From assembly GCF_011038965.1 (NCBI RefSeq), contig NZ_JAAKEB010000001.1:124001-188000 (forward strand): a stretch of 64,000 nt of DNA, read 5' to 3'. The notes below the pieces were generated by a model. That model worked only from the letters and a program-made list of their open reading frames with translations, did no database searches and was not told the origin of the DNA. The translations under genes were made by a program, and so were the position numbers. This document shows positions 44-14,837 of the stretch, piece after piece (the stretch's first letter is position 1; each line of letters starts with the position of its first letter). This DNA is from Adlercreutzia sp. ZJ141 (GTDB lineage Bacteria > Actinomycetota > Coriobacteriia > Coriobacteriales > Eggerthellaceae).

Positions 44-84
44 GCTTCCTAACTGGAATACTATATAGAGAGGTGGAATCGACA

Positions 85-2124
85 ATGGGAAGTCGCATGT
101 ATCAGTATGAAAAGATTCCGAGAGTTCCCCTGGAGGGGTCGGCCTCGGCTGAAGGTTGCGTAACCTTGGCGTTTGAGGATTTCTCCTGCACGAACGTCAA
201 GGTCTTGAGCGAAGACGGTGCAAGTGGAATCGTTTACGAAGCAGTATCAAAAGACTTCTACCATTCCGAGGGCATGCCATCGGCTAGGCTGATAGTGAAA
301 GAATGCTATCCCGTTAAGATTGCCGATAGACTGAGACGGGAGAAGGGCGTTCTGTCTTTGTCGCCCGAAGCAGATGAGGACGACGTGCTCTACTTTAATA
401 GGTTTCTCAAGCAGTACAAAGACGCTTTTTCGAGTCACGCCGCACTATATCAAAGCTCCGCGCGTGAGCAGATAGTCGTTCCCGACAAGTCATATTCGCT
501 GAATGGGACGCAATACTTGGTTAGCGACGCGTCCAACGGCGATACGATGACATTTGCGTTTGAGCGCATGAGTCTGAAAGACAAAATCAAGACGCTCGTT
601 CGTGTGTGTGAGGCAATCACCGCGATTCACGAGGCTGGCTACGTTTACCTCGACCTGAAACCTGACAACATCCTCTGCGTGAAGAACTCCGATGCGAGTT
701 CGAACAGGTTGTACACGGGTGAAATCAAATTGTTTGACTTCGATACGGCAACCAAGATCTCGGATTTATCTAAAGCCGATACGCTGATATTTGGATCAGG
801 CGGCTGGTCGGCACACGAGCAGACCCACGAAGGGTATCGCGACAAGATAGGTCCTCGGAGCGACATCTACTCCATTGGAGCGTTGTTGTTCTGGATAGCG
901 GTCGGCCGTCCTCCGAAATCTAATGAAGTCATACATGCTGATGGTAAATGGCCGATTAGCGGTAGGGATTGTTCGAACGCTGAACTTATCAGGGCAGATG
1001 AACGCGCTCTCCAATGTGTTCGACATATCCTTAACAGCACGTTAACGGTCGATCCAGCCCTCCGTTATTCGACAACCAAACCATTAATAGACGATCTTTC
1101 AATTCTGGGTGATCTTATTTTGCCAGTAGGACCCACCCACGCAACAGATCATATGGCAATGAGAGCAGAACTCGAAAACCTGGCTACCAGCATTTCGGAA
1201 GTAAAAGCGCTGTTGGAATCATCGAGAGGGGCGGTTGACTCTACGCCAAACACAAGCGAATCCGAGGCGGAATCTGTCGGCACTGGGTTCGGCGATGCTG
1301 CGGACATGATCGCTCCGGCTGACGTTGATATAATAGAATCGGACTTGAGTGACGGAAACCCAGCTGTGGTGGGATATGCGGTATATCAGATCCTTACGTC
1401 CCTTACTGACAATTTCGAATATGACATCCAAGACGATATTCGCGCTGTCTTATCAAGTACCGCAGCGAAAATCAAAGACGTGCTGTCAGCTCGGAGTGCG
1501 GACGAATCTGAAGACCTTTTTGAAGTGGCAACCGAAATGGCAAACTCTGTTTTGCATCTGCTTGTCTGCAATATGGCCCTCGATATGCCTGAATACTACC
1601 ATGTTCCGGCTAAAGTCACCCGTATCTGTAAAAGCGTGCTTTCCTCTCTTTCGCATGCGACTGCAGAAAAGGATGTAGATGAGATGCTCCGTTACTGCGC
1701 CGATGCGGTGCGCTGCACCTATGCCACTCAGCTCCTTGCCGTAGCAGGATCAATAAGAGGGAACCTCAGCAAGTATCTCTCTGACATCTATCTAGCCGCA
1801 TTCGACGATGCAACAAACAACGTAGTCTCCGCGCTTGAGGGTGCTGACGCCGAAAAGATAGACGCTGCGGTTGAAGGACTAGAGCGCTGCACCCATGCCA
1901 CTCAACTCCTTGCTGCAGCGGAGTCAACAAGGGAGAGCCTCGGCGAGTACTTCTCCGACAGTTATCTAGTCGCAATCGACGATGCGGTAGACAACGTGGT
2001 TTTCGTACTCGAGGGCGTTGACGTCGAAAAGATAGACGCTGCGGTTGAAGGACTAAATAGAATACTAGCGCAGGCTAATGAGAACGCAATGGCAGGTATG
2101 ATTTCCAGGCAGCTCGATGACTAG
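85..2124 (+). CDS. divergent Ser/Thr protein kinase with C-terminal repeats (kinase A)
   Basis: Residues about 35-340 form a Hanks-type kinase domain: a glycine loop GASGIVYE near 45, the ATP lysine in VKECYP near 72, catalytic loop YLDLKPDN near 188-195 (HRD has become YLD, but the Asp, Lys and Asn remain), and DFD in place of DFG near 218. It should phosphorylate Ser/Thr on unknown substrates. No membrane helix is seen, so it is probably cytosolic. The last third is helical and ends in a tandem 58-residue repeat. ATG 85 is preferred to GTG 73 because GAGGTGG sits 8 nt ahead of it. The gene converges on partner gene 2142-3527 with only 17 nt between stops. It is a clear paralogue of the kinase at 5721-7331. 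Kinase identity is firm; the role is unknown. Confidence 0.85.
   Translation: MGSRMYQYEKIPRVPLEGSASAEGCVTLAFEDFSCTNVKVLSEDGASGIVYEAVSKDFYHSEGMPSARLIVKECYPVKIADRLRREKGVLSLSPEADEDDVLYFNRFLKQYKDAFSSHAALYQSSAREQIVVPDKSYSLNGTQYLVSDASNGDTMTFAFERMSLKDKIKTLVRVCEAITAIHEAGYVYLDLKPDNILCVKNSDASSNRLYTGEIKLFDFDTATKISDLSKADTLIFGSGGWSAHEQTHEGYRDKIGPRSDIYSIGALLFWIAVGRPPKSNEVIHADGKWPISGRDCSNAELIRADERALQCVRHILNSTLTVDPALRYSTTKPLIDDLSILGDLILPVGPTHATDHMAMRAELENLATSISEVKALLESSRGAVDSTPNTSESEAESVGTGFGDAADMIAPADVDIIESDLSDGNPAVVGYAVYQILTSLTDNFEYDIQDDIRAVLSSTAAKIKDVLSARSADESEDLFEVATEMANSVLHLLVCNMALDMPEYYHVPAKVTRICKSVLSSLSHATAEKDVDEMLRYCADAVRCTYATQLLAVAGSIRGNLSKYLSDIYLAAFDDATNNVVSALEGADAEKIDAAVEGLERCTHATQLLAAAESTRESLGEYFSDSYLVAIDDAVDNVVFVLEGVDVEKIDAAVEGLNRILAQANENAMAGMISRQLDD
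1711..2058 (+). repeat. tandem 174-bp repeat inside kinase A
   Basis: Two in-frame units (1711-1884 and 1885-2058) each encode 58 residues, beginning RCT(Y/H)ATQLLA and ending EKIDAAVEGL. DNA and protein are both strongly similar, which points to a fairly recent duplication. The 38 residues just before (from about 1597) align ungapped but weakly with the later part of the unit, suggesting an older half unit. The units look helical and may be a binding surface. Confidence 0.85.
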
Positions 2125-2141
2125 GTTAGTTGCGGTGGTGC

Positions 2142-3527
2142 TCACATGGAGTAGAACTCGGTGAGCATCTGATTGAGATAGTCGATCGGATGTCTGTTAC
2201 CCGACCCGGCAATGCTGCGAAGGAAAAGGCCGTCCAGGGGTTTTCTCGGATGCAACGGCATCATGCCGCATTCATCGGTAAGGATGATGTTAGTTTGCTG
2301 ATAGAAAGAGTCGAAAAGAGTTTCCTTGAGAGCCCCGTTGGCCATCTGGGCGTCGTTTTCGAAGCAGAAGTGGAAGAAGAGCAGGGCCACCATATTGCCC
2401 CTTGGAATTCCGTTTTCTCGCATCCGCCCGACTGCGTGCTCCTCGGTTCTAATCTCGCGATCTTGTAAGACATCCAAATCTCGCTCGTTTTCCTCGAGCC
2501 AGGCTCTGCGGTTCATCGTCCCCCAAAGCAGACGCTTCCTCTGCGAGTCCTCTTGAACGTATGCGTTGTCGAGGTAGCTTGTCTCAGGGAGCGTGAGGCT
2601 GTATTTTTCCTTATACATCTCGACTAGCGAACGAATTCCGACGCCACCTTCTTTGAAGAAGAGATCGTATGTCTCAACCACAGAGCGTTGGATTCCGGTG
2701 AAAAGCCTGTGGTTGGATTTCAGGAAGGCACGAAACGCCTCTGCCGCATGGTTCTGGTCTGCGAAATCTGATTCAGAAAGCCCCCTGATCCTCCCGCCAA
2801 GCAAGCGGGTAAAGCCAGCCGCTGATTCCGTTTCTTTCGAACCACCCTGGAGGTGGTTTAGTGCTGAGCTTGCTTCGAGTTTATACCACTCAAGCATTTC
2901 GATCGCTTTTGCGTACGCATCGTTGCCGAAGATGTTTTGGCAACCGATAAAGAAGATGTATATAGCCTCTTCCGCAACTCTGTAGTTGAGCCAATTCTGA
3001 TAGAGGCACTCAAAACAAAACCTTTGGGATTCGGCGAGATTAAGGTTCATTGCCAAACACAGCTTGAAGATGCTTCGGGGGCTAACGTATACCTCCCATT
3101 TCTCCTTCGTGATCCATTGGCTCAAGTTCGCAGAGGAGAAACCCAGCCCTTTTTCCTTCCCCGACTCGCGCAAGGCCTTCTTGACACCTTTCACGTCATC
3201 TGCAATACCAAAACGCCGCGCAACAAAGCTGGTGAGCCGCTCGTTGAACGGCACTATCTCCATCGTCAACTCATTAAGGGCATCTATTGTGGAAAGGGGT
3301 TCAATATCCTTGAGGCTTTCGAGCATTTCAACGGTGTACGCACCGTGCTTTTTGGGAAGCAATCGCAGCTCTTCTAAATTCTTATCCTCGGGTGTAATCA
3401 TTATGTCTCGCAGTTTCCGTTTTAATAATGCTATCGCCTTAATGGTTGAAAACCCCAGGTTCTGTCCATAATGAGATAGCTGGTTTTCCAGGTCATCGTT
3501 GTTACATTCTAGCCCATACTCTATCAT
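2142..3527 (-). CDS. HTH-like partner protein of kinase A
   Basis: I do not recognise a named family for the full length. It is a clear paralogue of 7497-8696: shared blocks include (V/I)PFNERL, SSANLSQWI, FTG(I/V)R.S and a C-terminal block with PLHPRKP. The SSANLSQWI block, followed by a Ser-Pro and a LCLAMNLNLAE-type helix, resembles an XRE-like helix-turn-helix followed by the tail seen in HTH proteins encoded beside bacterial Ser/Thr kinases. DNA binding is therefore plausible but inferred. About 90 residues precede the shared core, more than in the paralogue. The start is uncertain: ATG 3527 is chosen, with no clear ribosome site; TTG 3593 is the upstream alternative. It faces kinase A tail to tail. 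Confidence 0.75.
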   Translation of the reverse strand: MIEYGLECNNDDLENQLSHYGQNLGFSTIKAIALLKRKLRDIMITPEDKNLEELRLLPKKHGAYTVEMLESLKDIEPLSTIDALNELTMEIVPFNERLTSFVARRFGIADDVKGVKKALRESGKEKGLGFSSANLSQWITKEKWEVYVSPRSIFKLCLAMNLNLAESQRFCFECLYQNWLNYRVAEEAIYIFFIGCQNIFGNDAYAKAIEMLEWYKLEASSALNHLQGGSKETESAAGFTRLLGGRIRGLSESDFADQNHAAEAFRAFLKSNHRLFTGIQRSVVETYDLFFKEGGVGIRSLVEMYKEKYSLTLPETSYLDNAYVQEDSQRKRLLWGTMNRRAWLEENERDLDVLQDREIRTEEHAVGRMRENGIPRGNMVALLFFHFCFENDAQMANGALKETLFDSFYQQTNIILTDECGMMPLHPRKPLDGLFLRSIAGSGNRHPIDYLNQMLTEFYSM

Positions 3528-3722
3528 AGGGGTGGCTGAGGGTCGTAGCTGCTCCCGTGGCAAGCGCAAGCGCGAGGAAACGATAAACAGCAATATGAGT
3601 TTAGATCATACGAAGCGGCATTACATCTCATCGTGTGGATACCCAAACATAAGAGGAAGGTTGGCTGCAAGAAGAGTCGCACCGAGACCCGTCATATTTT
3701 GGCGAAGAACATGTTTATCTTC

Positions 3723-4167: not shown

Positions 4168-4617
4168 TTGAAACGCTTTGTGCTCCTCTTTTTAACTATA
4201 TTAGTTGCTATAGGGTTTTATGGCTGTGCTTTCACGGCAGATAAGAGTCTTTACGAGAATAATGTAATAAACAGCGCTCAATATCTTCTCGAGGGGAAGA
4301 CTCCCGGAAAGTTTATTTCTGACGAATTGCATTTTAATACTATTGCAGACGGAGTGTATTATTCTGACGTGCACGTCAAATCTCATACTGTGGATGCAGT
4401 CAAGGATCAGACCTCGATATTTGATAAGGAATACAAGTATGTGATTGGCGGAAATGTGACTTTTACCGGGTCTTTTAACTATTACACAAATGGCGAGTTT
4501 GGCAGCAACGACTACGAAGAGGTACGGACTTACGGGCCGTATGAATACCATGCCTGGTGTACGGTTACCGCTGACGGGAAAGTGAATTGGACCGGTTTTC
4601 AAATGAACGATTTATAA
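4168..4617 (+). CDS. small lipoprotein
   Basis: The 149-residue product starts with a lipoprotein signal: Lys-Arg, a hydrophobic run, then FYGC with the lipid-bearing Cys at residue 20. The mature part is polar with many Tyr and Asn and no motif I recognise; it probably sits on the outer face of the membrane. The start is TTG 4168, supported by GAAAGGG about 7 nt upstream. It stands alone among the kinase modules; its outer location makes it a possible sensor-side partner, but nothing shows this directly. Codon use is AT-rich like its neighbours. Confidence 0.7.
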   Translation: MKRFVLLFLTILVAIGFYGCAFTADKSLYENNVINSAQYLLEGKTPGKFISDELHFNTIADGVYYSDVHVKSHTVDAVKDQTSIFDKEYKYVIGGNVTFTGSFNYYTNGEFGSNDYEEVRTYGPYEYHAWCTVTADGKVNWTGFQMNDL

Positions 4618-4951: not shown

Positions 4952-5155
4952 GACCAAATAGTTGATGCCTAAGACTTCCAATATGACACCCCCACCCCAC
5001 TGCGTTTTGGTTAAGGACCTCAGAATGCCCTTGTGTAGTAAACTCATTCCCTGCAAGGGAAACATAGCTAGAATAGCAACATGACGCTCAAAGCCTGCTG
5101 TATTCTCGGCGTCTGAGAACCTGCCGGGCTATCGCGCATTGCAAAATGCCCGAAC

Positions 5156-5713
5156 CTATTGCTTCTCAAAAACTATGTCGTAGCTTTCGTCATTAAAGTG
5201 GAGGTATAGCGTCCAGGGATCTGCTTCAGAGTTCATGTAGATGTAAAACTCACCAACTTGCATTCCGGATGCTTTCAGTGCGTATTTTAGATAAAGGTCA
5301 AGCGTTCCCCTGTCGATTTTATCTACGAGTGACCATTCGTATTTTCGCTCGGCTGTCTCTGTGGTAAGTATACAGCTTCCATCTTCACTGGCGCTAAATG
5401 TCATTTCTTTGAGAGTATTACCTGGTGCGGGCACGCTTTTCGTATCAACATGTGCGGTTGACATGAATGAGGTCCATTCCCCAATGACGGGATCGCTGGG
5501 AGAAATACCTTTGTCAAAGAACGCGCCGAATACGCCGGTCGTCCATGCAAAAACTGCTATGGCGACTATTGCCAGCATGATGATCACGGTGGCTGCGATA
5601 CGTGTTCTACCCGTACCCTTTCCGTCTTTCGCGTGTACCTTGTCTGCGAGTTTATCGTCTAACGTCTTGTTAGCTACCTCTAGCTTTGCTTCAAAGGTGT
5701 CAACGTCTTCCAT
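5156..5713 (-). CDS. membrane protein with a kinase-B-like outer domain
   Basis: This 185-residue protein has a charged cytosolic N-terminus rich in Lys, Glu and Asp, one membrane helix (about residues 45-65) and a C-terminal outer domain. That domain starts VIGEWTSF and contains DGSC, a TE..E stretch and a Trp, matching the order seen in the outer domain of kinase B (VGHWQSI, DGTG, TEQTE, W). Both resemble lipocalin-like beta domains, a fold guess only. ATG 5713 has AGGA 5 nt upstream and begins 7 nt after the kinase B stop; GTG 5740 would overlap it. It is very probably co-transcribed with kinase B and may share or titrate its ligand. Confidence 0.7.
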   Translation of the reverse strand: MEDVDTFEAKLEVANKTLDDKLADKVHAKDGKGTGRTRIAATVIIMLAIVAIAVFAWTTGVFGAFFDKGISPSDPVIGEWTSFMSTAHVDTKSVPAPGNTLKEMTFSASEDGSCILTTETAERKYEWSLVDKIDRGTLDLYLKYALKASGMQVGEFYIYMNSEADPWTLYLHFNDESYDIVFEKQ

Positions 5714-5720
5714 CTTGTTC

Positions 5721-7331
5721 CTATCTGACGAAATATACACCTGTTATGGTGGTGCCGTCGCTGGTGTAAAGGGTACATAACTTCGTGTAGCCCTCAAGAG
5801 CCTCGAGCATGCCGGTTTTTTCCGACTCGAGTTTAACTATGGTTTTGTAGTCGATGTCGGATACGACAAGCTTTGTAGTGGCTGTTCCGTTGTTTGTTCC
5901 GACGTACGTTCGCGTCAGGTGACCGTCTTCGTCAGCAACCTCCATGGAATACTTCCACGAGAAAGAGACTTCCGTCTGCTCTGTAGCAACGCTACCCGTT
6001 CCATCTGTTCTGATGGTAAGAAGGGTCGAGTCGCCTATCAAGAAAGAGTCTTTGTCGCTTATATTGCCCGAACCGTCATCTGGTGCGGTGAATGTCGCAA
6101 TCGATTGCCAATGACCGACCAGAGGTTCGAGTGTGCTTTTTTGAAAGAAGGTAACTGTCGCAATCGCAACAGAGACGGCAACGATTGCGACCAGAATCGC
6201 ACACCATCGTACGAGGCGGCTTCTGCGTGCTTCTATTTCTGCCTTACGTATTGCCTCGGCTGCGCTGCCCTCTATCTTCCCGAGCTCTTGCTTTGCTGCT
6301 TCTGAAATGGGAGAGACAAGCTCAAGCAACGTCTGGATGTTTAGCTTGAGGTCTTTTGCAGTGGGGTATCTTTTATCGGGGTCGATAACTAAGGTTTTGT
6401 CGAGTATTTCAGTTATTTTCTTTCTTGCGCGACTACCGAAGCACGAAAACGTTGGGTCTTTCAGCACCTCGTCGGTATTCCATGACCCGCAGGCGTGGAT
6501 GACCTCGGTGGCGGTAGGGGGTCGACCGTAGGCCATCCAGAACAAGATGGCACCGATCGAGTACAGATCGGTTCGCATGTCGATGCCTTGCCGTTCTGGG
6601 CGAAACACCTCGTACCCCGACCAATTCTTGGTACCCAATACAGGCATTCCGTCTCCGAATCCCTTTTTCTCCGCCAGTGTGCTGTCGAAATCAAAAAGAA
6701 CCACTTTTGTTCGTTTTCCGGCTGTGTCCTGAAACGTGATGATATTGGTTGGTTTGAGATCTAAGCAGTAGTAACCACAGCTGTGTATGGCTATGACAGC
6801 ATCGCAAAGGGACGCCAACATCGCAATCCGTTCAGGTCCCGACATGTTGCCGATGGCCCTGTCGAGGGTGAGACCGTCAGATGCGTCACTAACAAGGTAT
6901 GCTGTATTGTTTTCTTTTAGATAGTGAATGGGCGTGCTGACGAACTCCTTGGCTTTTCCCTGGTGGAGACTGGTGTGTACAGTTATTGCCCAGTCGAAGC
7001 GCTCAAGGTTCTGCTCGAAACTAAGTTTTGCGAACGTTGGTGCATCCTGCGTAAGCTGCAGGCACTTACCCAACCTTTGCAGGTAGGGGCTCGTGTCTAG
7101 CGGGTAGCACTCTTTGACAATAAGCCGCGCCGGTGTGGCCACTTCCGTACCGTAGAGATCGTGTGATATTGTCTCGTAGACGATTCCGCTTGCGCCATCT
7201 ACGCTGAGCGTCTTTACCTGCTCGCATGTGAAGGAAGGGAATCGCAGTGTCGCCCCTTGCGTGCTGTTTGCATCGAGAGATATGCGGCTTGGCTTAGCGA
7301 TGGGCTGGCCTTGCGCAATGGGGAGGTCCAC
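5721..7331 (-). CDS. membrane Ser/Thr protein kinase with outer domain (kinase B)
   Basis: Residues about 35-335 are a kinase domain closely related to kinase A: GASGIVYE near 47, VKECYP lysine near 73, CLDLKPTN near 189-196, DFD near 214 and a D.YSIGAILFW block near 255. After a helical linker there is one membrane helix (about 376-396) and an outer domain of 140 residues starting VGHWQS. The layout is that of a receptor kinase sensing something outside. Starting GTG 7331 is supported by GGAG 7 nt upstream. It is transcribed away from its partner 7497-8696 and ahead of the membrane protein 5156-5713. HRD is replaced by CLD and DFG by DFD, but the catalytic Asp, Lys and Asn remain, so activity is plausible. 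Confidence 0.85.
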   Translation of the reverse strand: MDLPIAQGQPIAKPSRISLDANSTQGATLRFPSFTCEQVKTLSVDGASGIVYETISHDLYGTEVATPARLIVKECYPLDTSPYLQRLGKCLQLTQDAPTFAKLSFEQNLERFDWAITVHTSLHQGKAKEFVSTPIHYLKENNTAYLVSDASDGLTLDRAIGNMSGPERIAMLASLCDAVIAIHSCGYYCLDLKPTNIITFQDTAGKRTKVVLFDFDSTLAEKKGFGDGMPVLGTKNWSGYEVFRPERQGIDMRTDLYSIGAILFWMAYGRPPTATEVIHACGSWNTDEVLKDPTFSCFGSRARKKITEILDKTLVIDPDKRYPTAKDLKLNIQTLLELVSPISEAAKQELGKIEGSAAEAIRKAEIEARRSRLVRWCAILVAIVAVSVAIATVTFFQKSTLEPLVGHWQSIATFTAPDDGSGNISDKDSFLIGDSTLLTIRTDGTGSVATEQTEVSFSWKYSMEVADEDGHLTRTYVGTNNGTATTKLVVSDIDYKTIVKLESEKTGMLEALEGYTKLCTLYTSDGTTITGVYFVR

Positions 7332-7496
7332 TCGTTTTCTCCATTCATCCGTCGGGAAGGCTTTCAGGTTTGTCTTACTATTCTATACTTTATGAGCGAT
7401 GAGGTAGCTTCGTTGCTTCGTTGAATGTGGGTAGTTGACGTGGCACAAGCGTGAGAATTGAACTGCTGCCAGCCACTCTGAAGGGATGATGTACGA

Positions 7497-8696
7497 ATGG
7501 CAACCGATGCTGCGTTTCCTTACCAGTTCGGATCATTGACGGAAGGCGTACTCGAGGATTACCGATCAGCTTCTTTCATTAGCGCGAAAGCAGCCGCTCG
7601 AGAGCTTGCCGCCGAAATGATCCCGTTCAACGAACGCTTGTCATCGTATATTGCGCAACGGCTCGACATTCCCGACAACCCAAAGTCTATAAGGAGGGCT
7701 CTTCGAGCGGCAAGTAAGCACAAAGGGCTTGATCTATCCTCTGCGAACCTGAGTCAGTGGATCTCTGAGCCGAAGGGAGAGGTGACTCTGAGTCCAAAAA
7801 GCGCGTTTAAGCTATGTGTTGCGCTGGATCTGAACTTGTTAGAGGCCGAGCATTTTGTTTTTGATTGCCTGTACCAGGATTGGTTCAACTTCCGCGATAG
7901 GGAGCAGTGCGTTTACGGTTTGTGTTTGGGAGCTAAAGACATACTGAGGGATAACGTCTATCAGATTGCAAAGGAGCTTCTGCAGGAAGAGTCCTCTAGA
8001 CACAGCACATTTCCTGTTGTATCAGATGATGCGACTAGTTGCACGCAACTCATCAACTGCGGCTTACGAGATTTCGCAGCGCGCAATTATGCATCCCAAA
8101 AAGAAGCTGTTTCTTGGATGCGAGACTATTTAAGCGAATGCGCACCTTTGTTCACAGGGGTAAGATTGTCGGCTGCACGTTGCTATCGAACTTACTTCGA
8201 TGAGGGTGGAGCCGGTATAACTCCTCTGGTGGAACTCTACCGCAGAAAGACGGGCTTAACCCTCCCCTCTACAAGTTATCTGGATATGACAGACACGTGC
8301 GTTCTTCCCAACAAGAAGAGGCTTTTATGGGGTATCATCGGCCGCCCTGCATGGGTTGAACGAAACGGTAGAGATTGGGATATTCTTCACGACAGTACAA
8401 TTAGAACCGAGCGTCATGCAGTGGAGCGAATGGCAAAAACGGGCTATCTGCGTGGAAACATCATTGCTGTACTGTTCTTCCATTTCTGCCTTGAGAATGC
8501 ATTCTCGAACGATTCCGACCTATTCACTCGCTTCTATGAAACAACGAACCTCATCTTGGTCGACGAGTGTGCCATGGCACCCCTGCATCCACGAAAACCT
8601 TTCGACAGGCTGTTTCTAGCAGCGTTGTCAAAGCATGGCAACCAGGATCCCATCCAATACCTCAACGAGATTCTTGAACAATTCTACGCATCATAA
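7497..8696 (+). CDS. HTH-like partner protein of kinase B
   Basis: A 399-residue paralogue of 2142-3527. In order: IPFNERLSSYIAQRL, a basic helix RRALRAASKHKG, SSANLSQWI, an SPKSAFKLCVALDLNL helix, a segment with a REQCVYGL block, then a conserved C-terminal half with FTGVRLS, EGGAGI, LTLPSTSYLD and PLHPRKP. The first part looks like an XRE-type helix-turn-helix with the tail known from kinase-neighbouring HTH proteins; the C-terminal half is unknown to me. ATG 7497 has AAGGGA about 10 nt upstream. It diverges from kinase B, so the 165-bp gap must hold both promoters. A kinase target or kinase-controlled regulator is the natural guess. Confidence 0.75.
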   Translation: MATDAAFPYQFGSLTEGVLEDYRSASFISAKAAARELAAEMIPFNERLSSYIAQRLDIPDNPKSIRRALRAASKHKGLDLSSANLSQWISEPKGEVTLSPKSAFKLCVALDLNLLEAEHFVFDCLYQDWFNFRDREQCVYGLCLGAKDILRDNVYQIAKELLQEESSRHSTFPVVSDDATSCTQLINCGLRDFAARNYASQKEAVSWMRDYLSECAPLFTGVRLSAARCYRTYFDEGGAGITPLVELYRRKTGLTLPSTSYLDMTDTCVLPNKKRLLWGIIGRPAWVERNGRDWDILHDSTIRTERHAVERMAKTGYLRGNIIAVLFFHFCLENAFSNDSDLFTRFYETTNLILVDECAMAPLHPRKPFDRLFLAALSKHGNQDPIQYLNEILEQFYAS

Positions 8697-8971: not shown

Positions 8972-9538
8972 ATGAGTGGAAAAACCTGCACTACCTGTGG
9001 AGCCGTAATACATGAGGACGAAAAGAACTGTCCCCAGTGCGGAACAGCGCTCATTGCCACTAGCGTACCTACCATTAGTACACCGGATGAAGCAGGAACC
9101 GCTGCTCATAATATATCCTCTAGCAAAGCATCAACTCCTGCGATATCGCGCGTTCTTGCAAATTGGAAGACAAGCGTTGGAGCAAGCATCGGTGGCTTTT
9201 TTGCATTCTTAGCACTCGGTAGATCAATCGAACTCGTATCTTCCACTTCCTATGGCGGATTTCTCTTATACCTTATAGCTTCGTTTATATGGATCACCTG
9301 TAGCATTTGTTATGCATCATCATTCTACCCATCTCTCTTCAGGGCAGATAGTCAATACTCTGCCTCATCTGCCTTCATTTCTTTCATGAACTTGTTCTTT
9401 GGCGGTATCATCTTCGGATGCCTTTGGAATAGCAACCTCACGAAGGGTGCCAAAGGCATATCGTATATTGTCTATGTGATTATCGGTGTGATAGAGCTTG
9501 TCATAGGTTTTGTGGTTACCGCATCCGTTCTTCTCTAA
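8972..9538 (+). CDS. zinc-ribbon membrane protein
   Basis: The 188-residue product starts with a zinc ribbon: CTTCG at residues 6-10 and CPQCG at 20-24 give the two Cys pairs. A Ser/Thr-rich linker follows, then about four hydrophobic segments between residues 65 and 188. AGGAGA stands 5 nt before ATG 8972. Proteins with an N-terminal ribbon and multiple membrane helices are common in Gram-positive bacteria, but their role is poorly known. No partner is evident; it stands between module B and a coiled-coil gene. Confidence 0.7.
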   Translation: MSGKTCTTCGAVIHEDEKNCPQCGTALIATSVPTISTPDEAGTAAHNISSSKASTPAISRVLANWKTSVGASIGGFFAFLALGRSIELVSSTSYGGFLLYLIASFIWITCSICYASSFYPSLFRADSQYSASSAFISFMNLFFGGIIFGCLWNSNLTKGAKGISYIVYVIIGVIELVIGFVVTASVLL

Positions 9539-9786
9539 AACAGTGAGGTTATCTTGACAGTTTCTGGCCTCCAGCTATCAAAGTGTTATACGAGAATCAT
9601 GCCAAATGACACAAAACCCGGTGACAAGGATCATCTAATGTCAATCTTTGATGCTCAGCTATCTCTCATAACTTCCAGTCTGCAAGGTTGCGATTGATGC
9701 TGTGCAGAATATGAAAAGTGCAGGTCTACATACTACAAGGGGTTTAAAGTTTAGTTTCAAGAATAATAGTAGGAAGGGGAGCGATT

Positions 9787-10095
9787 ATGTATAAAATGAT
9801 AAAGGCAGCTCGGGAATATGAGTTGATGATAATCCAAGCGGAAATTGATCGCTACAGAAGACAAGCTGAAAAAAGCGCTCGGGAACTCGAAAGACTGAAA
9901 GAGATCGAAAGGACAGAACGTCAGCGTTATGAAGAAGAGTGTCGGCGACGCGAAGAAGAAATTCTACGTTATACTGAGCTGCGCAAAAGCGACAATGCAG
10001 ACGATCAGCGTGAAGCTGATGCTATACTCGAAAGACTAGCGCAAGAAATCGAGAAAATCTTTGCCCAATGGGAAAGCGATAAGGGAAGAGTTTGA
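9787..10095 (+). CDS. short coiled-coil protein
   Basis: The 102-residue product is almost entirely charged and helical, with runs such as RREEEILR, so a long coiled coil is likely from about residue 10 to 95. A strong purine-rich ribosome site (AGGAAGGGGAG) ends 5 nt before ATG 9787. I recognise no family. It precedes the ATPase gene by about 190 nt, too far for obvious coupling. The gap 9539-9786 ahead of it holds a 32-codon frame at 9599-9697 with no good ribosome site, which I do not call. Confidence 0.6.
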   Translation: MYKMIKAAREYELMIIQAEIDRYRRQAEKSARELERLKEIERTERQRYEEECRRREEEILRYTELRKSDNADDQREADAILERLAQEIEKIFAQWESDKGRV

Positions 10096-10219
10096 CACGG
10101 GATTGCGCATCTTTCAAATGTCATATGGCTCGTGCATCGACGGCGTAACAGTCATGAAAATCATATCGCTATAAGCTCCGTTTGTATCTTCTAGATGTCT
10201 GTCCAGATAATCCAGATAT

Positions 10220-10271
10220 TGCACTAGGTAAGTGCAGTATATGCTAAAATGTGCACTCTCATAGTGCACAT
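10220..10271 (+). promoter_or_regulatory. double dyad operator overlapping the ATPase promoter
   Basis: Two inverted repeats share the half-site AGTGCA: TGCACT-5 nt-AGTGCA (10220-10236) and ATGTGCACT-5 nt-AGTGCACAT (10249-10271). Their centres are 32 bp apart, about three helical turns. TTGCAC (10219-10224) and TATGCT (10240-10245) or TAAAAT (10245-10250) could be the promoter, so one dyad covers the -35 and the other the early transcript. This is the geometry of a repressed promoter. Confidence 0.6.
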
Positions 10272-10283
10272 GAAGGACTTACC

Positions 10284-11453
10284 ATGGAACGACTTTACGA
10301 ATACATGCAGCGCCAACTTGCTCATACGCCCAATGACTTTCTACGCTACCGTTACGGGCAGATCAACTGGGAAAACCCGATGCTCGGACTCGTGGGTCCG
10401 CGAGGTGTGGGTAAAACCACGCTGTTTCTCCAGCACATTGCCAACGAACGCTCGCTTGACGAAACGCTGTACGTTTCCGCAGATCACATGTATTTCGCCA
10501 ACCATACGCTCTACGACACGGCAGAAACGTTTTACCACAACGGCGGACGTTTCCTCTACATCGACGAGGCTCACAAGTACGAAAACTGGTCGCGTGAGCT
10601 GAAGGCCATGTATGACACCTTCCCTGATTTTCACGTTTACTTCACCGGCTCATCGGTGCTCGACATCGAACGCGGTGAGGCCGACCTGAGCCGTCGCGCG
10701 CCAAAATACCTCATGCAGGGCCTTTCGTTTCGCGAGTACCTGGCTATACGCTACGGCATCGAAACTCCCGTTCGCAGCCTCGAACAGATTCTCGCCCATG
10801 ACTACCGTATCGAGGGAATCGATCATCCGATTCCTTTTTTCAAAGACTACCTGTACCTTGGTTACTACCCCTTCGGAACCGATCATGATTTCGAGGTTGA
10901 GCTCGATCAAGTTATCACACGTACCTTGGAAGTTGATATCCCCCAATTCGCAAACATGACCACTGCAACTGGGCGCAAGCTCAAACGACTCATGGCTATT
11001 GTCAGCACGTTAGCACCTTTCAAACCCAACATGTCGCAGCTCGCGAGCAGAATCGGCGCAAGCCGCAATAACGTGGAGGATTACTTGCTTTACATGGAGA
11101 AAGCGGGGATGATCGCGCAGCTACGCACTGAGCGCACGAATCTTGGAGCCCTCGGCAAAACCGAGAAGATCTACCTAGACAACACCAACATTCTCGCGAA
11201 TCTCAGTGAACAGACCGAGAATATTGGCACCGTTCGAGAAACTTTCTTCTACAACCAGATGCGTGTCAACCACCTGGTGACCGCCTCTACCATCTCCGAT
11301 TTCGAAATCGACGGGATGACGTTCGAAATCGGTGGCAAGAACAAAGGGAAAGACCAGATAAAAGCGGCTGAACGCGGCTATATCGCAAAAGACGACATCG
11401 AGTACGGACACGGCAACGTTATCCCACTTTGGGCTTTCGGGTTGAACTACTGA
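10284..11453 (+). CDS. DUF4143-type AAA ATPase
   Basis: The 389-residue product has Walker A GPRGVGKTT near residue 37, Walker B FLYIDEAHK near 92, and sensor FTGSS near 120. After the ATPase core come a winged-helix segment with LASRIGASRNNVEDYLLYM and a C-terminal nuclease-like fold with EIGGKNKGKDQI, as in the DUF4143 family. Such ATPases are widespread in anaerobes and human-associated bacteria, and their biological role is unclear. ATG 10284 is chosen over 10251 because AAGGA lies 7 nt before it and the upstream start would lie inside the operator dyad. It is preceded by a double dyad, so it is likely repressed, perhaps by its own winged helix. Confidence 0.85.
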   Translation: MERLYEYMQRQLAHTPNDFLRYRYGQINWENPMLGLVGPRGVGKTTLFLQHIANERSLDETLYVSADHMYFANHTLYDTAETFYHNGGRFLYIDEAHKYENWSRELKAMYDTFPDFHVYFTGSSVLDIERGEADLSRRAPKYLMQGLSFREYLAIRYGIETPVRSLEQILAHDYRIEGIDHPIPFFKDYLYLGYYPFGTDHDFEVELDQVITRTLEVDIPQFANMTTATGRKLKRLMAIVSTLAPFKPNMSQLASRIGASRNNVEDYLLYMEKAGMIAQLRTERTNLGALGKTEKIYLDNTNILANLSEQTENIGTVRETFFYNQMRVNHLVTASTISDFEIDGMTFEIGGKNKGKDQIKAAERGYIAKDDIEYGHGNVIPLWAFGLNY

Positions 11454-11570
11454 GCGTGACGAGGGTCACACCAAAACACGAGGATTCCCCGGCAGGTGCC
11501 GTTTGTTGCATATGGGTGCGCCCGGTGCCGATTTTCTGCGGGATGTGCCCGTCTGTGCTTCCCGGTACCG

Positions 11571-11576
11571 TACAAT
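11571..11576 (+). promoter_or_regulatory. -10 box of the thiC transcript
   Basis: TACAAT, which would start transcription near 11583, right at the 5' end of the TPP aptamer. The -35 is weak. The position relative to the aptamer is the main support. Confidence 0.4.
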
Positions 11577-11582
11577 GACCTC

Positions 11583-11736
11583 ACCGGGGAGCTCGCACGC
11601 TTTCGTTGCGTTGTGGCAGTCGTTTGCGCTGCAGCATTGCTGTGCGGAAGGCGGTGGGCTGAGAGGAGGCGCGCGGTGTATACCTGTCGCCTCGACCCGA
11701 AGAACCTGATGCGGGTAATGCCAACGAAGGGAGAAC
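11583..11736 (+). promoter_or_regulatory. TPP riboswitch (THI element)
   Basis: The conserved blocks appear in order: GGGGAGC (11586-11592), GCTGAGA (11658-11664), GAACCTGAT (11702-11710), GGGTAATGCC (11713-11722) and ACGAAGGGAG (11724-11733). The insertion between the first two blocks is about 65 nt, so helix P3 is long. The 3' conserved block also contains the purine-rich ribosome site for ATG 11741, so ligand binding should hide it directly; no terminator is seen. This implies translational control of thiC by thiamine pyrophosphate. Confidence 0.9.
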
Positions 11737-11740
11737 CATC

Positions 11741-13231
11741 ATGCCAAGTAAGCAGGCATGCGCCATTGCGCCCGAAACCACCGTAGCTCAATCCGTCACG
11801 TCCGAACTCACTGCGCTCGAATCTATTGCCTCCGAACCCACTACACCTGATTCTGCTGCCTCCGAACCCACTGCGCCGGAATTCGCCACATTCAAACGCA
11901 CTGCACCCGAACCTGTCACGCAGATCGACTTCGCCCGCGCTGGTGTTATCACGCCAGCTATGCACATCGTAGCGGAAAAGGAGCATCGCGACCCCGAAAC
12001 AATCCGCGCAGGCGTTGCTTCGGGACGCATCGCTATCCCCGCGAATATCCATCATACGTCGCTTTCGCCCGAGGGTGTGGGCACGTGCGCAGACGGCGCG
12101 GGGCTGCGCACGAAGGTGAATGTGAACCTGGGCATTTCGGGCGATGTTGCTGACGAAGCCGAAGAATGGAAAAAGGTCGACGTAGCGCTCGAACTTGGTG
12201 CCGAGGCCATTATGGATCTGTCGAATTCCGGCAAAACACGCGCTTTTCGCACGGCACTCATCGAAAAAAGCCCTGCCATGATTGGCACCGTGCCCATGTA
12301 CGATGCTATCGGGCACTTAGATAAGGCGCTCGTGGACATTACAGCGGACGACTTTCTGCGTGTGGTGCGTGCGCATGCGGAAGACGGCGTTGATTTCGTT
12401 ACCATTCATGCGGGTATGAACCGTCGTGTTATCGACAGCTTCAAGGAAACGGGGCGCCTTACCAACATTGTGAGTCGTGGCGGCTCGCTTATCTTTGCAT
12501 GGATGGAAGCCACCGGCAACGAGAACCCCTTCTACGAACACTACGACGAGGTGCTTGAAATCCTGCACGATCATGACGTGACCATTTCCATTGGCGATGC
12601 CATGCGCCCCGGTTCAACGTATGACGCCACCGATGCGGCGCAGATTGCCGAGCTCATTGAAATTGGCAAGCTTACGCGGCGCGCGTGGGACGCTGGCGTA
12701 CAGGTGATGGTGGAAGGACCGGGGCATATGGCGCTCGATGAAATTGCGGCCAATATGAAGCTGGAAAAGCGGCTGTGCCATAACGCGCCCTTCTATGTGT
12801 TGGGACCTTTGGTGACCGATATCGCGCCGGGCTATGATCACATCACCGCCGCCATTGGCGGGGCAATTGCCGCTTCGAGTGGTGCGGACTTTCTATGCTA
12901 CGTAACGCCAGCGGAGCATTTGCGCCTGCCCGACGCCGACGACGTGCGCGAGGGGCTGGTAGCAACCAAGATAGCCGCACACGCTGCCGACATGGTACGC
13001 CGCGTGCCGGGAGCGCGCGATCGCGACAACCGCATGAGCGATGCCCGCCGCCGTGTTGACTGGGACGACATGTTCACCCTCGCGCTCGATCCCGCGAAAG
13101 CGCGTCGCTATTTCGAAAGTGCACCGCCTTCCACGGAGGGAACGTGCACCATGTGCGGTAAGATGTGCGCCATGCGAACGGTGAATCAGATCATGGATGG
13201 CCTTGTCATCGACTTAGGTGAAGAACGCTGA
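11741..13231 (+). CDS. thiC: phosphomethylpyrimidine synthase
   Basis: ThiC turns aminoimidazole ribotide into hydroxymethylpyrimidine phosphate, the pyrimidine half of thiamine, by a radical-SAM reaction in the cytosol. The C-terminal cluster motif CTMCGKMC is near residues 468-475. The core contains family blocks such as [14 protein letters not shown] and [11 protein letters not shown] 11741 has GGGAGA about 7 nt upstream inside the TPP riboswitch. Odd feature: the first 60 residues include five degenerate 10-residue repeats that are not part of the usual enzyme core. It heads a thiC, hydrolase, thiD group. Confidence 0.97.
11768..11917 (+). repeat. five 30-bp units in the thiC N-terminus
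   Basis: Five in-frame 30-bp units (starting 11768, 11798, 11828, 11858, 11888) encode decapeptides on the theme A-S-E-P-T-x-P-E-x-A. Units 2 to 4 are closest; the outer ones have drifted. The insert lies before the conserved core, so it is probably a tolerated linker. Confidence 0.8.
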
Positions 13232-13373
13232 CGAGGTGAGCTTGCGAAGAGCGCTGACGAAAAGCCTGACGAATCGCGCGAAACGAAGTGTGCGAAACGA
13301 CGTGCGCGAAACGGACGGAAAGACCATTCGATAAGCTGCTCGCGTTTGGGAATCAGAAGAATTTGGAGGAACC

Positions 13374-13973
13374 ATGCTAGGAGACGAGAAGAATACCGCG
13401 CTTGTTGACGTTGATGGATTGCGCGCGAGCGACTGCGCGCTGCTGGTCATTGACGAGCTGGGCGATCCGCGCGAAACGCCGTTGGAAGGTGTGCTGCTGC
13501 CCGCCATCCAGAACACGGCGCGTTTGTGTGAGGTAGCGCGCGAGCAGGGCATGCCCGTAATCTTTACGAACGACGCTCACCTTCCCGGGCTCGACCGTGA
13601 GCTTGAGCTGTGGGGGCCGCATGGCATTGCCAATACGCCCGAAGCACAAACGAGTCCGCTGCTCAATCCACAAAAGAGCGACTTCACAGTGGAGAAGCGC
13701 CGCTACAGCGCATTCTTCCAAACAGGGCTTCGTCTGCTGCTCGATGAGCTGGGCGTGCGAGCGCTCATTTGCTGTGGCATGGACACCAACATCTGCGTGC
13801 GGCACACGGTGGCTGATGCCTACTTCAACAACTTCGACGTTGTGGTGGTGTCTGACGCGACGGCAACTTTCTTGGTGGGCAACCAAGAGGAAGGTCTCGA
13901 GTATATGAAGGCGTGCTACGCGGCAGCGGTGATTAACACCGAGGAAGCGTGTGCGCTTATCGGTCGTGCGTAG
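13374..13973 (+). CDS. isochorismatase-fold cysteine hydrolase in the thi cluster
   Basis: The 199-residue product has the family's triad positions: Asp in LLVIDELGDP near 28, Lys in VEKRRYSAF near 106, and the nucleophile Cys in CGMDTNICVRHT near 139. The family hydrolyses amides, ureas or vinyl ethers (nicotinamidase, biuret or N-carbamoyl compounds, isochorismate). The exact substrate cannot be read from the sequence. GGAGG lies 5 nt before ATG 13374. It sits between thiC and thiD, 143 nt after thiC and 72 nt before thiD, so a thiamine or pyrimidine salvage role is an attractive inference. The gap 13232-13373 shows nothing clear. Confidence 0.85.
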   Translation: MLGDEKNTALVDVDGLRASDCALLVIDELGDPRETPLEGVLLPAIQNTARLCEVAREQGMPVIFTNDAHLPGLDRELELWGPHGIANTPEAQTSPLLNPQKSDFTVEKRRYSAFFQTGLRLLLDELGVRALICCGMDTNICVRHTVADAYFNNFDVVVVSDATATFLVGNQEEGLEYMKACYAAAVINTEEACALIGRA

Positions 13974-14045
13974 GTGCGACACAGGATTGCCGCGCTGGAA
14001 AGCGGAATGGCGAGAAAGCAGGAAAGCGAAAGCGAAGGTGCGGGC

Positions 14046-14837
14046 ATGAAGGCCGTTTTGAGCATTGCGGGGTCGGATTCAAGCGGGGGCGCGGGGATTC
14101 AGGCCGACATTAAGACCATCGAGGCACACCGGCTGTTCGCCGAGACGGCCATCACCGCACTTACCGCGCAGAATACCACAGGCGTGTTTGGGGTGGAGAA
14201 TGTACCGCCGGCGTTCGTGGAGCAGCAGATCGACGTGGTGTTTGACGACATTCGACCCGATGCGGTGAAGGTTGGCATGGTGTCATCGGGCGACATTGCG
14301 GCTACCATCGCTCGCGCGCTTTCTCGGAACGGGGCTCGAAACATCGTGGTTGATCCGGTGATGGTAGCTACGAGCGGCAGTGCGCTTGCCGAAGGCGGGG
14401 CGGTTGCGACGTTAGTCGATAAGCTGTTCCCACTTGCCGCAGTAGTCACACCCAACATTCCCGAAGCATGCGCACTTGCTGGCTTTCCCGTTGAGAGTGA
14501 AGCCGACATGGAGCGTGCTGCTGTTGCTATTGCAAGCCTTACGCCGGGAGCCGTGCTGGTGAAAGGCGGTCATGGCAGTAGCGCCACGGCGAGCGATTAT
14601 CTGCTTTTACCCGATGGGTCGGGTGTGTGGCTTCGCGCCGCGCGTGTGGATAATCCCAATACGCACGGCACTGGATGCACGCTGTCATCGGCTATCGCAT
14701 GCGGGTTAGCGAAGGGGCTCAGTATAGAAGACGCCGTTCGTGCGGCAAAGGCATACCTGACACGTGCCCTTGAGGCGCAGCTCGATTTAGGGCGGGGAAG
14801 TGGCCCCCTCGATCATGGGGTTGAGCCGGGCTGTTAG
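14046..14837 (+). CDS. thiD: hydroxymethylpyrimidine/phosphomethylpyrimidine kinase
   Basis: ThiD phosphorylates hydroxymethylpyrimidine and then its monophosphate, supplying the pyrimidine for thiamine assembly. The N-terminus AVLSIAGSDSSGGAGIQAD and the C-terminal NTHGTGCTLSSAIA block, with the anion-hole GTGC, are diagnostic of this ribokinase-fold family. Length (263 residues) is normal. ATG 14046 is preferred over GTG 13974 because the conserved start follows at once and AAGG lies 8 nt upstream. It ends the cluster before a strong hairpin. ThiE and ThiG-type genes are not in the window. Confidence 0.95.
   Translation: MKAVLSIAGSDSSGGAGIQADIKTIEAHRLFAETAITALTAQNTTGVFGVENVPPAFVEQQIDVVFDDIRPDAVKVGMVSSGDIAATIARALSRNGARNIVVDPVMVATSGSALAEGGAVATLVDKLFPLAAVVTPNIPEACALAGFPVESEADMERAAVAIASLTPGAVLVKGGHGSSATASDYLLLPDGSGVWLRAARVDNPNTHGTGCTLSSAIACGLAKGLSIEDAVRAAKAYLTRALEAQLDLGRGSGPLDHGVEPGC

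Follow-up and report, generated by a model that had tools for sequence, protein, structure and literature searches.

Directly downstream of the kinase B gene, on the minus strand of the window (the whole stretch of DNA analysed: 64,000 nt of the gut-type bacterium Adlercreutzia sp. ZJ141, contig NZ_JAAKEB010000001.1, positions 124,001–188,000, assembly GCF_011038965.1), we identified a small membrane protein without a kinase whose outer domain probably belongs to the same broad lipocalin-like domain family as that of kinase B. In our judgement there is about an even chance that this protein serves the kinase B signalling unit as an accessory subunit anchored in the membrane; given the shared domain type, it probably helps or restrains this kinase.

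Kinase B starts with a GTG codon and matches Pkinase (PF00069) with E 2.3e-14 in a Pfam search. Residues K73, D191, N196 and D214, which we take to be the catalytic lysine, aspartate, asparagine and aspartate, are invariant in all four aligned kinases. In the small protein, a tail of roughly 35 residues leads into a single helix, which is followed by an outer part of approximately 112 residues. The preliminary description had recognised that this order, helix then outer domain, repeats that of the kinase B end, and we found both genes and both domains arranged accordingly (Table 1). An alternative GTG start at 5740 would give a protein of 194 residues, compared with 185 from the ATG. Basic residues mark the cytoplasmic side of a membrane helix according to the positive-inside rule; because such residues precede the helix in both the small protein and kinase B, the outer parts of both proteins should face outside. 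A promoter and terminator scan of the locus gave results at or below chance.

Table 1. Coordinates of the small protein, kinase B and associated features (window positions unless a relative's locus is named).
Feature	Position	Strand	Remarks
Small protein, 185 aa, single-pass membrane	5156..5713	-	orthologs L018 6639-7199, L031 6742-7302
Small protein, parts			cytoplasmic N-tail residues 1-34; helix ~36-60; putative outer lipocalin-like domain 72-185
Small-protein outer domain	5156..5500	-	predicted eight-stranded barrel, pLDDT 88.1, pTM 0.79
Small-protein codons 1-14	5672..5713	-	most constrained region; 12/14 columns invariant (3 orthologs), dN 0.03-0.06
Kinase B stop to small-protein ATG gap, 7 nt	5714..5720	-	AGGA motif overlaps stop
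Kinase B, 536 aa	5721..7331	-	kinase domain, helix ~369-395, outer domain 402-536
Kinase B outer domain	5721..6128	-	putative GxW lipocalin-like family, profile E 3.3e-6
Divergent 399-aa protein, proposed regulator	7497..8696	+	adjoins this kinase type in 7/7 loci examined
Zinc-ribbon membrane protein	8972..9538	+	stays next to regulator in both close relatives
399-aa-type proteins	window 7497-8696, 2142-3593; L013 6965-8224; L014 14199-15452; L015 5752-7281; L018 8995-10218; L031 9098-10321

The order small protein, kinase B, divergent 399–407-aa protein and zinc-ribbon gene was found in the window and in two relatives, Slackia sp. ZJ119 (L018) and genome G368 (L031), that is, in three genomes in all, two of them of one genus. 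The kinase stop is separated from the small-protein ATG by 7 nt in the window and by 1 nt in both relatives, and an AGGA motif lies at or just upstream of the kinase stop in all three genomes; translational coupling of kinase B and the small protein is likely with such an arrangement. The tight pair is present in 3/3 genomes with a kinase B of this type and a readable downstream side (a related membrane kinase in L013 sits at a contig end, with its downstream side unreadable), which backs the earlier proposal of a second, kinase-less protein as a partner. The full-length small protein was detected in three of the 138 family genomes, solely beside this kinase type; loci whose kinases end in different C-terminal regions (window kinase A, L014, L015) yielded no small protein. 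At E <= 1e-10, the 399-aa type is present in 7 of 395 genomes from the order, in one of them (G232) in part only.

The similarity between the small protein and the end of kinase B is weak but, by several sequence measures, real. In blastp, residues 36–127 of the small protein align with residues 370–459 of kinase B at 28% identity over 100 columns (E 1.9e-5). Smith-Waterman alignment of helix plus outer domain scored 78, compared with 32.7 ± 5.5 for shuffled sequences (0/2000 as high), and the outer domains alone scored 48, compared with 29.2 ± 5.3 (9/2000 as high). Because the score of the helices alone, 41, was reached by only one of 55 other helices, the helix contributes to this similarity; the one control helix to do so comes from L080, a zinc-ribbon protein that carries a GxW domain. 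Profile-profile comparison, which the preliminary description had named as a check, placed the similarity above background, with 94% (E 1.1e-7) for the full small protein against the full kinase and 73% (E 3e-5) for outer domain against outer domain, where E refers to just the two profiles compared and the profiles held three orthologs per protein, or four kinases in the full-length comparison. Against 970 ORFs, the small-protein profile including the helix picked up the kinases at 9e-5 to 6e-4, whereas the outer-only profiles showed no mutual match at E <= 0.1, a result that counts against the similarity. Among the residues previously pointed out as shared, G.W and the later W are kept throughout, in the three small proteins and the three kinases alike, and TE only partially; DG is present in 5/6 of these orthologs, with DR instead in the L031 kinase. 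A recent duplication at the DNA level was rejected, as a repeat search of positions 5100–7400 identified no repeat of >= 16 nt between the two genes.

A large lipocalin-like family with the pattern GxW...DG...W appears to include both outer domains, with better evidence for the kinase domain than for that of the small protein. A profile built from four domains of two lipoproteins (L036 and L047), with no kinase row, matched at E <= 0.1 in 59/138 family genomes; its seeds were query-chosen, L036 via the small-protein profile and L047 via the kinase profile. The kinase B outer domain matched this profile with E 3.3e-6 in its own genome, 4.0e-6 in G367 and 0.023 in G368, whereas the small protein gave no match at E <= 0.1. 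With a larger profile of 43 domains, every one taken from other genomes, the small-protein orthologs scored 9.7, 10.0 and 11.7 bits (E 0.06–0.23 at Z 10000), in every case exceeding the 500 shuffles of the same ortholog, the best of which reached 8.2 bits. The four kinases scored 7.7–19.7 bits with the same profile; window kinase B lies above its own 500 shuffles, and the weakest (L031, 7.7 bits, with no shuffle set of its own) falls below the best shuffle of 8.2. Weak matches of the small-protein profile at E <= 0.01 occurred in 8 further genomes and on reading were mostly helices of unrelated proteins; L035 and L036, among these, carry the GxW pattern. The GxW domain is carried by lipoproteins as well, and we also observed GxW lipocalin-like outer domains on zinc-ribbon membrane proteins (L035 1315-2277, by eye only; L080 2617-3834; L087 2815-3933).

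For structure prediction of the small-protein outer domain we used an alignment of 42 rows (A11), comprising the 3 orthologs and 39 of the 43 collected GxW domains (4 were dropped by hand) and no kinase row. The AF2 model on this alignment has eight strands with pLDDT 88.1 and pTM 0.79, although 39/42 rows are family members and may pull the model towards that fold; the three-sequence alignment gave pLDDT 36.6. Foldseek searches with the model identified barrels of the fatty-acid-binding and lipocalin types, the best at E 0.014 and none at <= 0.001, and VIA-align matched it with Z 8.0–8.8 to 17 of 1000 chains, all small barrels, including Tp0751, Cap15 and Bacteroides lipocalin-like proteins. 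The domain is thus predicted to be a small lipocalin-like barrel of eight antiparallel strands; because Z values near 8 are modest, the claim stops at this description and names no single solved family. The preliminary description had proposed comparing the predicted folds of the two outer domains, and this was carried out in part: that of the small protein was modelled as a barrel, and that of kinase B was placed by sequence. By sequence search, solved structures yielded no match for the small-protein outer domain and seven weak ones for that of kinase B (best E 0.18, FlgE). Within A11, 16/42 rows match Lipocalin_4 (PF13648) at E <= 0.1 (best 1.2e-6) and other rows match DUF5004, DUF4923 and DUF5640 in Pfam. 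These families share the GxW...DG...W pattern, and the small-protein model finds some of its best structural matches in solved bacterial lipocalin-like barrels; in contrast to Lipocalin_4 and its related Pfam families, however, the two outer domains sit on transmembrane proteins, and neither matches any of these families.

The preliminary description had further held that the small protein shares the outer domain of kinase B and is the same sensor. The shared domain type and order stood; the identity of the sensor did not, since the outer domains of the two proteins are only 13–20% identical and are as close to certain unrelated lipoprotein domains as to each other. Single-sequence scores between small-protein and kinase outer domains were 3.0–13.7 bits, whereas the small-protein domain scored 15.9–21.5 bits against a lipoprotein domain of another genus (L036), its best single match among the 43, and the kinase outer domains reached up to 20.2 bits against lipoprotein domains; as top hits from a large search, L036 and L047 bias this comparison against the small-protein and kinase pair. 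Both kinds of score lie above the median of the 43 domains (1.2–3.5 bits). In maximum-likelihood trees the small-protein and kinase domains group together (94/82 with 50 rows, 95/81 with 56 rows) on branches that are both long, and AU tests did not reject placing the small-protein domain with L036 or the kinase domain with L047 (p 0.351 and 0.109). The two outer domains are perhaps an old duplicate, an origin that the trees favour rather than show.

The small protein is under purifying selection. In pairs with the window, its outer domain shows dN 0.21–0.25 and dS ~0.9–1.0 (dN/dS ~0.25), and the kinase outer domain dN 0.17–0.21 and dS 0.8–1.1. The helices of both proteins are less conserved (dN 0.28–0.46, pairs with the window). 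Residues 1–14 of the small protein have dN 0.03–0.06, with dS ~1.1 in both pairs with the window (2/3 pairs), and 12/14 of their columns are invariant, compared with 59/112 in the outer domain (Fisher p 0.022), figures that rest on 14 codons in three genomes. The start of the N-tail is constrained at the protein, not the DNA, level.

Based on these observations, we propose that coupled translation would give the small protein and kinase B in near-equal amounts and that the two would meet in the membrane, where both outer barrels may sense the same or a related cue. The conserved cytoplasmic N-tail would touch kinase B or its regulator, and this contact would adjust the signal to the divergently encoded regulator, in either an activating or a braking direction. 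The mutual blindness of the outer-only profiles, the unrejected AU alternatives and the low outer identity speak against this subunit reading; adjoining genes can also be co-expressed without contact between their products. A bolder version, which we regard as rather doubtful, is that the kinase has a natural twin without a kinase domain, produced in step with it, and that the two form a mixed membrane receptor. Outside, two diverged lipocalin-like barrels would read one cue; inside, the short conserved tail would set the gain of the kinase-regulator module, the outer parts of which vary from relative to relative.

A decoy or dominant brake, with the small protein taking the kinase B ligand or pairing via its outer part and so blocking kinase pairs, seems unlikely to us. 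Its layout of a helix and an outer domain without a kinase is that of the artificial TM-PASTA construct of PknB; overexpression of this fragment reportedly slowed the growth of M. smegmatis and led to cells resembling partly PknB-depleted ones, and no significant effect was seen with the PASTA form once the helix was removed (PMC4632501). The two cases are alike in being membrane-anchored outer domains without a kinase, and overproduction of the PknB fragment is reported as possibly interfering with the full kinase. However, that fragment was engineered from PknB itself (PMC4632501), whereas the gene seen here is natural and diverged, encodes an N-tail of its own and carries a domain other than PASTA. 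A ligand sink would also need to be in excess and would need no cytoplasmic contact, whereas coupling suggests near-equal amounts and residues 1–14 are the best conserved part; with such low outer-domain identity, a common ligand is uncertain as well. We prefer the accessory subunit over a ligand decoy because a conserved cytoplasmic tail is unexpected of a mere ligand sink. Among the roles offered in the preliminary description, co-receptor or regulator accordingly remains plausible, and a pure decoy fits less well with a protein whose most conserved part is cytoplasmic.

There is also a small chance that the protein is an independent envelope protein, with a common lipocalin-like domain and a separate job, which merely shares the operon. 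The abundance of the domain (59/138 family genomes), its occurrence on lipoproteins and zinc-ribbon membrane proteins, and the best single match to the L036 lipoprotein domain fit this explanation; the restriction of the full-length protein to this kinase type, the tight spacing and the conserved N-tail argue against it. We consider it improbable that the small protein is a membrane-tethered substrate or scaffold, whose conserved N-tail would be phosphorylated by kinase B and would then recruit the regulator. The tail has a Thr at position 6, and its start, constrained at the protein level, is nearly identical in the three orthologs, but one threonine within an acidic stretch is weak ground for such a role.

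Bacterial receptor kinases have mostly been studied as single proteins. A diverged partner without a kinase, closely coupled to the receptor kinase and bearing a barrel of the same type, as proposed here for Slackia and relatives, would be a small, testable case of a two-subunit receptor. Kinase-less sensor twins are already known in mycobacteria: the PknH-type sensor domain of M. tuberculosis is also present on the surface proteins LppH, LpqQ, LprH, LpqA and Rv3705c, all without a kinase (PMC4118811). Those proteins are lipoproteins or, in the case of Rv3705c, have a predicted signal peptide, and the PknH sensor fold is described in the same paper as distinctive, with two disulfides (PMC4118811). 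Here, by contrast, the protein is transmembrane, its gene directly follows the kinase gene and its domain is predicted to be lipocalin-like; the PknH sensors were compared with the small protein and kinase B by description only, and a PknH_C-like domain was not among the Pfam matches. A literature search that covered only a minority of subscription journals returned no relevant paper on lipocalin-like kinase sensors or Slackia kinases.

Other origins and roles were considered for the locus and rejected. For a phage or plasmid origin, the small protein was searched against phages and the regulator against plasmids, each with no match, and neither the small protein nor the regulators match PHROGs. 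A role in defence was rejected as PADLOC searches at E <= 0.01 gave no match for the small protein, either regulator or the zinc-ribbon protein. PADLOC kinase models do match kinases A and B, chiefly within the kinase domain; some kinase B stretches extend further, one of them to residue 506.

The kinase-regulator module is present twice in the window, with a second kinase (A, 683 aa) and a second 399-aa-type protein occupying 73–3593. We found no small partner and no GxW outer domain for kinase A. Five aligned members of the 399-aa type keep many invariant residues; searches of Pfam, NCBIfam, PADLOC and PHROGs returned nothing significant for the two copies in the window. A small putative lipoprotein (4168–4617), located between the kinase modules, matches DUF7305 with E 7e-4, under Pfam's cut-off. 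In L018, a 183-aa protein (6013–6564) with no significant Pfam match is encoded convergently with the small-protein gene; it presumably resembles CpcT/CpeT-like proteins. The C-terminal parts of this kinase family vary widely among relatives, and L014 encodes a kinase of the same type (9235–14175, 1646 aa) with a very long, repeat-like C-terminal part.
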